DNA of 64,000 nucleotides from an uncultured Mediterraneibacter sp. (lineage in GTDB: Bacteria > Bacillota > Clostridia > Lachnospirales > Lachnospiraceae): the NCBI RefSeq assembly GCF_944377805.1, contig NZ_CALWFZ010000003.1, positions 62,001 to 126,000 of the forward strand, in the 5' to 3' direction. Position 1 is the stretch's first letter. Each line of letters opens with the position of its first letter. Under the pieces are notes generated by a model. The model searched no databases, was not told the origin of the DNA, and worked only from the letters and a program-made list of their open reading frames with translations. Made by a program: the position numbers and the translations under genes. Below are positions 9,462 through 62,058 of this stretch, piece by piece.

Positions 9462-9694
9462 GAGTTAACAGAGAACTTAACCTGAGATGTACGACAACCC
9501 TGTAATTTTGAACCTACATTTTCTGAAAAGGGATTCCTATATTTCTGTGTAATATGTCAGGCCTCCAATGTGCAGTGGACGACAGAAAAGCAGATGCGGT
9601 TGCCCACCTGGCTGCGGCTAGGACTCAAAATACAGGACCGGCATTTTGGGGGACTACAAAAGATAAAGGCGGTCGTCTTGTACGGCCGCTTTTT
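9462..9694 (+). ncRNA. ssrS: Probable 6S RNA
   Basis: A 440-bp stretch without coding potential has a consensus promoter at its start and a terminator hairpin at its end (AAAG-G-CGGTCGT / ACGGCCG-CTTTTT, about 9665-9694). Its 5' part contains CTGAGATGTACGACAA, which resembles the start of enterobacterial 6S RNA (CUGAGAUGUUCGCAAGC). CCTGTAATTTTGA (about 9499-9511) is complementary to TCAAAATACAGG (about 9627-9638), with one bulge, giving the long interrupted hairpin typical of 6S RNA. 6S RNA mimics an open promoter and sequesters the housekeeping RNA polymerase holoenzyme. Other structured RNAs remain possible; a covariance-model search would settle it. Confidence 0.6.
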
Positions 9695-9749
9695 GTGACG
9701 GCGACGATCCAAAGTCCGGACTTGCCCGAGACCTTGGCGACCTCTTACA
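9688..9749 (+). repeat. Conserved 62-bp non-coding element, copy A
   Basis: Directly behind the 6S terminator is a stretch nearly identical to bases 50741-50801 (differences at about six positions and one single-base gap). Shared blocks include GGCGACGA, CCAAAG, CCGGACT, CCGAGACCTTGG and CTTACA. Inside it are a palindrome (AAGTCCGGACTT) and CCAA/TTGG arms that could form a small hairpin. I do not recognise a named family. Confidence 0.7.
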
Positions 9750-9847
9750 ATCCCGGATGTGCCTGCTGGCATTCCCGGAGATTCGACTGAGAAATAGAAG
9801 ACAGTTTTTGATGAACTGTATCAGAAACAGACCAGAGAGCTTTTGTT

Positions 9848-10765: not shown

Positions 10766-11012
10766 AAGAAATGTAAAAGCGATGATCGTGTAAAGTAGAG
10801 ACCCATTTTCTATCAGAGAGAGAAAATCACCGGCTGAAAGTTTTCTTTAGTTCAGATGGCAATCGAATTTCCCACGGGAGCTGTGTCTCTGAATCAAGTA
10901 GGAGATGACGCATGCTGTACGTTACACAGATATGAGTGTCCGCGCTTATTGTGCGGGAAACAGGGTGGTACCGCGAGTATTAGGCCTCGTCCCTTTTTGG
11001 GACGGGGCTTTT
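10766..11012 (+). promoter_or_regulatory. T-box riboswitch, phenylalanine type
   Basis: The leader carries the T-box hallmark TGGTACCGCG (10966-10975), which pairs with the uncharged tRNA acceptor end, then an intrinsic terminator (GCCTCGTCCC 10984-10993 / GGGACGGGGC 10999-11008 followed by TTTT). The 5' part has the usual GCGATGATCG...AGTAGAG opening of stem I. A TTC at 10869-10871 in the probable specifier loop fits phenylalanine, matching the pheS-pheT genes downstream. Binding of uncharged tRNA-Phe should favour the antiterminator and raise synthetase synthesis. Confidence 0.92.
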
Positions 11013-50711: not shown

Positions 50712-50747
50712 AAAAAGGCGGGAATCCGTGAGGGTTTCCCGCTTTTT
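50712..50747 (+). terminator. Intrinsic terminator after the EF-G paralogue
   Basis: AAAAAG-G-CGGGAA (50712-50724) pairs with TTTCCCG-CTTTTT (50735-50747). The conserved element copy B begins inside its 3' arm. Confidence 0.85.
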
Positions 50748-50801
50748 GTGATGGCGACGAGCCAAAGCCCGGACTGTCCGAGACCTTGGTGACCGCTTAC
50801 A
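50741..50801 (+). repeat. Conserved 61-bp non-coding element, copy B
   Basis: Nearly identical to 9688-9749, in the same strand sense and again placed directly behind a terminator. CGGA-CTG-TCCG can fold into a small hairpin inside CCAA/TTGG arms. Confidence 0.7.
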
Positions 50802-50828
50802 TATTATGCTAAGAAAACGTTAAGAATA

Positions 50829-61185: not shown

Positions 61186-62058
61186 ATGTCAGGAAAGAAA
61201 ATACAGTCGGCAAAGAGAAAGCGTTTTATCAACAATTCGATCGTTCATGTGATTCTGGCCGTGCTGGCGGCTATATGGGTATTTCCGATCGTGTGGGTCA
61301 TTCTGACCAGTTTCCGGGCGGAACAGGGCTCCTATGTGTCGACTTTTCTTCCCCAGTCTTATACTGTGGATAACTATGTGAAGCTGTTTACCGACACGAC
61401 GATCCTCAATTTCCCGCAGATGTTCATGAACACGCTGTTCATCGCGATCTGTTCATGTATCCTCTCGACGTTCTATGTACTGGCGGTTTCTTACTGTCTG
61501 TCCAGGCTGCGTTTCAAGTTGAGAAAGCCGTACATGAACATGGCAATGATCCTCGGACTTTTTCCCGGATTTATGTCGATGATCGCGGTATATTTTATAC
61601 TCAAGGCGATCGGACTTACGGAGGGAAACCTCATCAAGCTGGCGCTGATTCTCGTCTATTCGGGAGGAGCGGCATTAAGTTTTCAGATTGCAAAAGGATT
61701 TTTCGATACAATTCCGGAAGCAGTGGATGAAGCGGCTCTTCTGGACGGATGTACGAGATGGCAGATCTTTACGAAGATCACGCTGCCGCTTAGCAAACCG
61801 ATCGTTATTTATACAGTGCTTACGGCGTTTATGGCTCCGTGGCTCGACTTTATCTTTGCGAAAGTGATCTGCCGCGCCAATTCGGATCAGTATACGATCG
61901 CCATCGGCTTGTGGAGAATGCTCGAGAAAGAGTACATAGACAGCTGGTATACCTGCTTTGCCGCGGGAGCCGTGCTGATCTCGATTCCGATTGCGGCGCT
62001 GTTCCTGTATATGCAGAGATATTATGTAGACGGTCTGTCTGGAGCGGTCAAAGGTTAG
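61186..62058 (+). CDS. malG: Maltodextrin ABC transporter permease MalG
   Basis: A 290-residue six-helix permease, with EAA loop AVDEAALLDGCTRWQIFTKI (about residues 180-199) and the C-terminal MalG mark YYVDGLSGAVKG. It pairs with MalF to import maltodextrins. AAGGAGG precedes the ATG; its stop is 15 bp ahead of the pullulanase start, so all four genes share one transcript. Confidence 0.94.
   Translation: MSGKKIQSAKRKRFINNSIVHVILAVLAAIWVFPIVWVILTSFRAEQGSYVSTFLPQSYTVDNYVKLFTDTTILNFPQMFMNTLFIAICSCILSTFYVLAVSYCLSRLRFKLRKPYMNMAMILGLFPGFMSMIAVYFILKAIGLTEGNLIKLALILVYSGGAALSFQIAKGFFDTIPEAVDEAALLDGCTRWQIFTKITLPLSKPIVIYTVLTAFMAPWLDFIFAKVICRANSDQYTIAIGLWRMLEKEYIDSWYTCFAAGAVLISIPIAALFLYMQRYYVDGLSGAVKG

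Follow-up and report, generated by a model that had tools for sequence, protein, structure and literature searches.

A gene-less repeat of about 90 nucleotides behind intrinsic terminators in Mediterraneibacter, a probable non-autonomous mobile element

The genome of an uncultured Mediterraneibacter sp. (GCF_944377805.1) harbors about 40 copies of a short repeat, which in its full form typically comprises 90 nt, consists of two abutting hairpins (HP1 and HP2) and ends with GATT. Our data suggest that this repeat is probably a gene-less, non-autonomous mobile element of about 90 nt, which would move as a folded single strand, would be served by an enzyme acting in trans and would be targeted to terminators.

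Two copies are located in the window, which is the whole stretch of 64,000 nt that was analyzed (positions 62,001 to 126,000 of contig NZ_CALWFZ010000003.1). They had been described in an earlier note as a non-coding element of 61–62 bp that occurs twice in the same orientation, each time directly behind a terminator. The two copies, their positions, their shared orientation and their location behind terminators were borne out: Positions 9695–9749 and 50748–50801, both on the + strand, are identical in 48 of 55 alignment columns with one gap, and the first base of each copy comes right after a T5 tract, which itself lies behind a GC-rich hairpin. Nothing observed pointed to a coding function. 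The repeat is real, but the unit proved to be longer than described, as copy 1 reaches position 9783 and includes a second hairpin at 9749–9783. Similarly, the hairpin that had been proposed from the arms CCAA and TTGG exists, but these arms represent only the middle of HP1, which according to the fold closes from G 9695 to C 9748. The features are as follows:

9668..9694, + strand: intrinsic terminator (hairpin and T5) of the 6S RNA gene, host target site of copy 1
9695..9783, + strand: element copy 1, full length with HP1 and HP2, 89 nt (boundaries from full copies and relatives, and from the fold)
9695..9748, + strand: HP1 of copy 1, the conserved hairpin (match of covariance model R1 at 9693–9753, 38.9 bits; fold)
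9749..9783, + strand: HP2 of copy 1, the right-end hairpin with terminal GATT (fold; right boundary from 123 copies, in which the flank behind GATT looks random)
50717..50747, + strand: intrinsic terminator (hairpin and T5) of the EF-G paralogue gene, target site of copy 2 (from the sequence)
50748..50801, + strand: element copy 2, consisting of HP1 and lacking the right half that contains HP2 (R1 match at 50745–50804, 37.9 bits; comparison with full copies)

The R1 model was built from 51 sequences in all, which came from other genera except for one copy of the own genus, and in the whole window it yielded exactly two matches at E ≤ 1, namely the two copies. A search of the source genome with copy 2 as query gave 33 matches at E ≤ 10, of which 30 were below 0.01 (copy 2 itself included). 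Since there are 30 such matches in the genome and R1 found only the two places in the window, chance can be excluded as the origin of the similarity. The element had no match in Rfam 15 at gathering score in the window and 16 further loci, and a permissive scan with E up to 10 returned only matches under the gathering scores. In the window, the Rfam scan assigned the 6S RNA (RF00013) to 9476–9656. A T-box leader (RF00230, 118.1 bits) was found at 10773–10997 (+ strand), shortly behind the YihY gene.

The assembly of the source genome comprises 2,277,543 bases in 45 contigs and is 92.6% complete. When 30 of its loci were read, most copies continued behind HP1 into the second hairpin and ended with GATT or a sequence close to it. 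With the right half as query, 40 places matched at E ≤ 1. The number was 41 at E ≤ 0.1 with a covariance model of HP1; four of these 41 belong, by our own reading, to other subtypes or lie within other mobile DNA (one in contig C42, two in C12 and one in C13). Instead of just two copies and no conservation among relatives, which the earlier note had named as the finding that would speak against its idea, there is thus a high copy number in the source genome, and relatives carry HP1. The majority letters of the full copies are G[TC][AG]NN GGCGACGAGCCAAAGTCCGGGCTTGCCCGAGACCTTGGCGACCGCTTAC AATCCCGGAATGTGCCTTTTGGCACTTCCGGTGATT. No inverted terminal repeats were detected in the element consensus and the flank profiles, and no target duplication was detected in the flank profiles or in comparisons of filled and empty sites. 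A well-preserved copy folds from its first to its last base into the two abutting hairpins, with z values of −4.70 as RNA and −4.76 as DNA, whereby the outermost HP1 pairs are open in the DNA fold. Copy 1 of the window reaches z values of −3.06 (RNA) and −2.15 (DNA), and copy 2 folded by itself does not reach significance (z −1.18). An HP1-like hairpin with a far longer stem was observed on contig C13 (L503:1546-1654, − strand), where it lies behind a tRNA-like gene and is followed by tandem repeats.

The element was found in 15 of the 41 genomes searched. All 15 are among the 25 genomes of the genus, and none of the 16 genomes from other families of the order carries it. Element-bearing genomes contain between 1 and at least 22 copies, and the element-bearing contigs from an exact-pattern search mostly bear the name of Mediterraneibacter or of relatives. 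Among 30 6S/YihY loci that were read, two have a full copy (source genome and G072), three have a remnant (G062, G002, and G060) and 25 have none, whereby one of these 25 is without the 6S part. The terminator at 9668..9694 is retained in relatives without the element. Most of the matches listed for the 6S part in the genus search stop at query positions 694–697, i.e., at window positions 9693–9696 in the T-tract, a statement that covers the 6S locus only; the others among the matches listed end at 620 (two), 642, 668, 669, and 702, and those of the source genome and G072 run on. At the EF-G/TrkA locus, both flanks are present in 24 of 30 loci; the element occurs in two of these (source genome, and G069 with a diverged full copy) and is absent in 22. 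By eye, the loci of relatives at the place of the EF-G paralogue mostly show a hairpin with a T-tract and no element. The sites that are shared by distant members of the genus reflect either repeated insertion or an old insertion that was lost elsewhere. Behind the 6S terminator of G060 (L207), the remnant is, by our own reading, interrupted by another insertion that has the ends TTACTATTCACAG...CTGTGAATAGTAA.

Comparison of the fetched copies from six genomes pointed to amplification within single species. The maximum identity between copies at different loci was up to 98.9% in M. glycyrrhizinilyticus BSD, Mordavella An582, excrementigallinarum, and colneyensis, 95.6% in the source genome and 94.4% in pullistercoris. 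Positions 2–5 bear a predominant species signature, with exceptions in each species, and the remainder is nearly constant. The signatures of this tip are GTGA[CT] in the source genome, GTATA in BSD, GTACT in Mordavella, GCAAC in excrementigallinarum, GCG[AC]T in colneyensis, and GCGTG in pullistercoris. The mean divergence from the consensus amounts to 4.6–7.1% for the parts of HP1 and the stems of HP2, 9.8% for the HP2 loop and 46% for the tip, and the changes are mostly transitions (424 versus 172 transversions). Within the genus, pairing is about as frequent as expected from independent columns, the hand-drawn pairs are without covariation, and RNAalifold gave no useful structure for the within-genus alignment. 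Because divergence is even and pairing nearly independent, the inserted copies look unconstrained, and judged from their sequences the resident copies within the genus seem to decay as if neutral. Of the readings that the earlier note had offered, the small dispersed mobile sequence is supported by the copy number, the empty sites and the species-specific amplification. A post-terminator RNA element that works in place is not favored, given that most of the loci read in relatives are without the element and that pairs do not covary within the genus. More generally, it is very improbable that the element acts in cis, as RNA or DNA, and is kept behind terminators by selection, for instance for the control of read-through or as a site for a nucleoid protein. 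Its constant position and orientation and the conservation of the HP1 structure across genera would agree with such a role, but at both loci of the window most of the relatives read lack the element, its pairing and divergence within the genus are those given above, and many copies are truncated or internally deleted.

HP1 is distributed more widely than the full element. Of 299 Lachnospiraceae genomes (one per genus), 18 matched a consensus query of 96 bases at E ≤ 1e-6, the source genome among them, and most of the additional genomes share only HP1 and have a different second hairpin (type B). A type B query matched 60 of the 299 genomes (one per genus) at E ≤ 1e-4 and revealed a further type C. 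For an HP1 alignment, 51 sequences, one per genus, were taken from 82 distinct HP1 sequences. In this alignment, 91.2% of the cells of the 17-pair structure are paired compared to 80.1% in shuffles, and 15 of the 17 pairs are changed on both sides (97 such cells); none of 500 shuffles was as high by any measure. The structure also scored clearly above all slid controls, although it was drawn from the tested sequences and is thereby favored in this control, so that the pairs changed on both sides carry more weight. The structure is weakest at the two outermost apical pairs, which do not form in 14 and 25 sequences. In type B, the arms of HP2 seem by eye to compensate each other's changes. Among the non-canonical cells of HP1, G-T (30) and A-C (35) are about equally frequent, a ratio that favors neither RNA nor DNA as the folded form.

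The position of the element relative to terminators was evaluated for 123 full copies together with their flanks. Each of the positions −1 to −5 is a T in 87–99% of them, and the sequence behind GATT looks random. In a set of 120 distinct full copies (type A), which is a non-random sample since many loci were found via exact or near matches, 117 have five or more T among the eight bases before the element. The upstream 45 nt fold with ≤ −10 kcal/mol in 114 of the 120 copies compared to 44.6 in shuffles, and such a downstream fold was obtained for 15 of 120 compared to 10.5 in shuffles. In the source genome, a strong fold is present upstream of 23 of 25 copies and downstream of 1 of 25. With a stricter rule on the gap between hairpin and boundary, 67 of the 120 type A copies pass versus 39.4 in shuffles; this lower number is probably because A-T pairs reach into the T-tract. 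The element has only one orientation relative to the terminator, directly after the hairpin and T-tract, and in two other genomes its orientation by eye seems to follow the replication arms, as genes do. Types A and B follow strong hairpins, the mean upstream fold being −18.7 for type A (shuffled −8.8) and −16.5 for type B (shuffled −5.8). For type C relatives, a location behind terminators is not evident, with a mean upstream fold of −6.4 (shuffled −4.5) and at least five T in 12 of 27. In two type A cases (L261/L524 and L318), the upstream hairpin is not a gene terminator and corresponds to a GGGGACGTAGT-type repeat of the genus.

In several loci, the element is followed directly or nearly directly by another copy, either whole or in part (L320, L364/L451, which are the same place, L369, L379, L395, L450, L459, and L466). 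Because the right end of the element is itself followed by a second copy or piece in these loci, the choice of terminators may be a matter of mimicry: With its hairpin and T-tract, a terminator is similar to the element's right end, where HP2 is followed by TGATT or GTT, and this similarity would also account for the head-to-tail copies. Since the ends of the element are the ends of hairpins, the pairing of HP1 is conserved, and inverted repeats and target duplications are missing, we propose a folded single strand of DNA or RNA as the form in which the element moves. An enzyme acting in trans would recognize HP1 and HP2 of this strand and would join the element to the 3′ side of a hairpin that is followed by T residues. 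Insertion behind terminators would spare the genes of the host. Among the possible mechanisms, our first choice is the version with single-stranded DNA, similar to that of HUH enzymes, although no enzyme for it was found. With considerably more reserve, one may extend this to a class that spans the family, namely minimal mobile elements of about 90–100 nt made up solely of two abutting hairpins, whose mobility would depend on a folded single strand with a conserved internal loop (A[CT]GAG opposite CGA[CA], which is possibly a tandem G-A motif) and a GCTTGC apex. Terminators would mimic their right end, and the class would represent a new kind of terminator-seeking parasite that is served by a putative enzyme.

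The enzyme might alternatively be a reverse transcriptase that copies RNA of the element at the T-tract, either a group IIC enzyme acting in trans or by target-primed copying, in which the A-rich 3′ tail of minus-strand RNA would lie on the T-tract. We regard this retrotransposition as rather unlikely. In its favor, group IIC introns make no target duplication, and likewise the element has neither target duplications nor inverted repeats. Moreover, its left junction is exact and its right ends are variable. Truncated copies are common; by eye, about 15 keep the T-tract end and six keep only the right end, in a tally that excludes loci brought in solely by the left-half pattern and is not an unbiased census (L025 keeps the right end, and L078 and L521 resemble full copies that have diverged). 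However, selection for retention of the terminator would yield an equal truncation bias. Half copies are truncations, diverged full copies, or internal deletions, several of them between GGCGAC repeats. One site occurs in a full form (L329 or L289) and a short form (L064), which differ by 36 nt between two GGCGAC repeats, whereby the flanks of L329 are 98–99.5% and those of L289 93% identical to those of L064.

Bacterial-C group II introns insert just after rho-independent terminators and thereby spare genes (PMC8919778), and this insertion right after an intrinsic terminator is shared by type A and similarly by type B. These introns are large ribozymes with domain V and a reverse transcriptase, whereas the element has 90 nt, consists of two plain hairpins and leaves no room for a reverse transcriptase; a gene between split element ends was found in none of the loci fetched. 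Domain V (RF00029) was not detected at gathering score in the window nor in the permissive scan of 9660–9800. Under the threshold used and with strict filters, it was also missing in the high-copy genomes G012 (at least 22 copies), G022 (15), and G002 (10), which argues against retrotransposition. The copy number of the element does not vary with the domain V matches, and a link to group II introns was rejected. On contig C42 of the source genome, there is a long frame (L500:2093-4126, − strand) that by our own reading runs from an ABC-permease-like part into a part similar to a group II intron reverse transcriptase, and the sole domain V match of the genome adjoins this frame.

Ends-only, palindrome-associated members of IS200/IS605 (PATE) have two hairpins, neither inverted repeats nor target duplications, and are presumably moved in trans (PMC7290912); the element has the same anatomy with hairpins at both ends. 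A Y1_Tnp match is present in 49 of 58 genus genomes. Nevertheless, dispersal of IS200/IS605 or REP type by a Y1 transposase of the genus appears quite unlikely. The source genome has no match to a Y1 (HUH) transposase at E ≤ 1e-5 in its 92.6% complete assembly, and G001, a member of the genus, has eight Y1 matches and no element. The Y1 genes of about 275 aa in 19 loci (L143, L149, and 17 similar ones) are flanked by GGGGACGTAGT-type inverted repeats that are unrelated to the element, and a second group of Y1 genes in the genus has yet other flanks. In the three of these 19 loci whose neighboring genes were read, the Y1 gene is located between a glycyl-tRNA synthetase-like and an M18-type peptidase-like gene. 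The flanks of IS200-size Y1 genes, checked in 50 loci, contained one strong element match (L124). Furthermore, ends-only elements target a bare tetra- or pentanucleotide, in contrast to the hairpin and T-tract targeted here, and neither a full IS nor any other autonomous element with the same ends, its halves split by a gene, was seen in the loci fetched.

REP sequences with TnpA-REP (RAYT/TIRYT) are similar to the element in being short extragenic hairpins with many copies. The foot of REP hairpins carries a conserved GTAG-type tetranucleotide, and TIRYT are Y1 proteins with GGGG-type inverted repeats (PMC8266576; PMC6006769). The element has no GTAG-type foot, its tips are mostly G[TC][AG]NN and species-dependent, and its copies do not flank the Y1 genes read in the genus. 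As these Y1 genes bear other repeats, the REP/RAYT link was rejected. Overall, Y1 transposases are not a good fit as the mover, given that the source genome is without a match and that the RAYT-like ones read have their own repeats.

BOX, RUP, and MITEs are short, non-coding, intergenic repeats with multiple copies. The element shares these properties and differs from them by the lack of terminal inverted repeats, by its strict position behind terminators and by a two-hairpin plan that is kept across many genera; from a MITE of a DDE transposon, it also differs by the missing target duplications. Because it fails a tested feature of each, the element was assigned to neither group IIC introns nor ends-only IS605 elements, and we consider it a new variant among the small non-autonomous mobile repeats. 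In the open-licence literature, titles and abstracts and a search with six short stretches of the element yielded no description of it. Terminators are safe landing places, a role in which they are best known as targets of group IIC introns. If our explanation is true, another machine reads a hairpin with T-tract as an insertion site. The element could then be used to trace the history of strains of common gut bacteria, and it would be a source of post-terminator sequence that annotation ignores. With the enzyme in hand, it would offer a natural system that places short cargo behind genes and leaves them unbroken.

The R1 model matched 2 of 398 genomes of the phylum at E ≤ 1e-5, both from Lachnospiraceae and the source genome included, in a scan that had stricter filters and for which few Lachnospiraceae were drawn. 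The 61-base HP1 query gave no match in 20,395 E. coli records and in 72,556 plasmid records, and one match in 50,697 phage records, whereby the open frames of the matching record look chromosomal by our own reading. Two type A patterns had no match in the viral collections, and a gapped HP1 pattern matched two viral-contig stretches. On contig C12 of the source genome (L499:2160-3753, − strand), HP1-type hairpins lie directly upstream of a Tn916-type xis and overlap the 3′ end of int, the stop codon of int being within such a hairpin (xis and int were named by Pfam). In eight xis loci from viral contigs, no HP1 match was present in the fetched stretches. HP1 at the Tn916-like element was therefore read as a passenger, and an origin of the element from an ICE was rejected. 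It is hardly credible that recombination, gene conversion or hitch-hiking with other mobile DNA alone spread the element. Related hairpins do occur at xis/int of the Tn916-like element and inside a 231-bp repeat of G175, but the eight xis loci lack them, the flanks of the copies in the source genome look mutually unrelated, and the left junction is exact. The G175 repeat (L461, L463, and L467) is about 231 bp long, has the inverted ends GTAACTATTCAG...CTGAACAGTTAC and, by our own reading, contains a type B element as passenger; the idea that this repeated flank is itself the autonomous element was rejected, as it is a repeat with inverted ends that carries the element.
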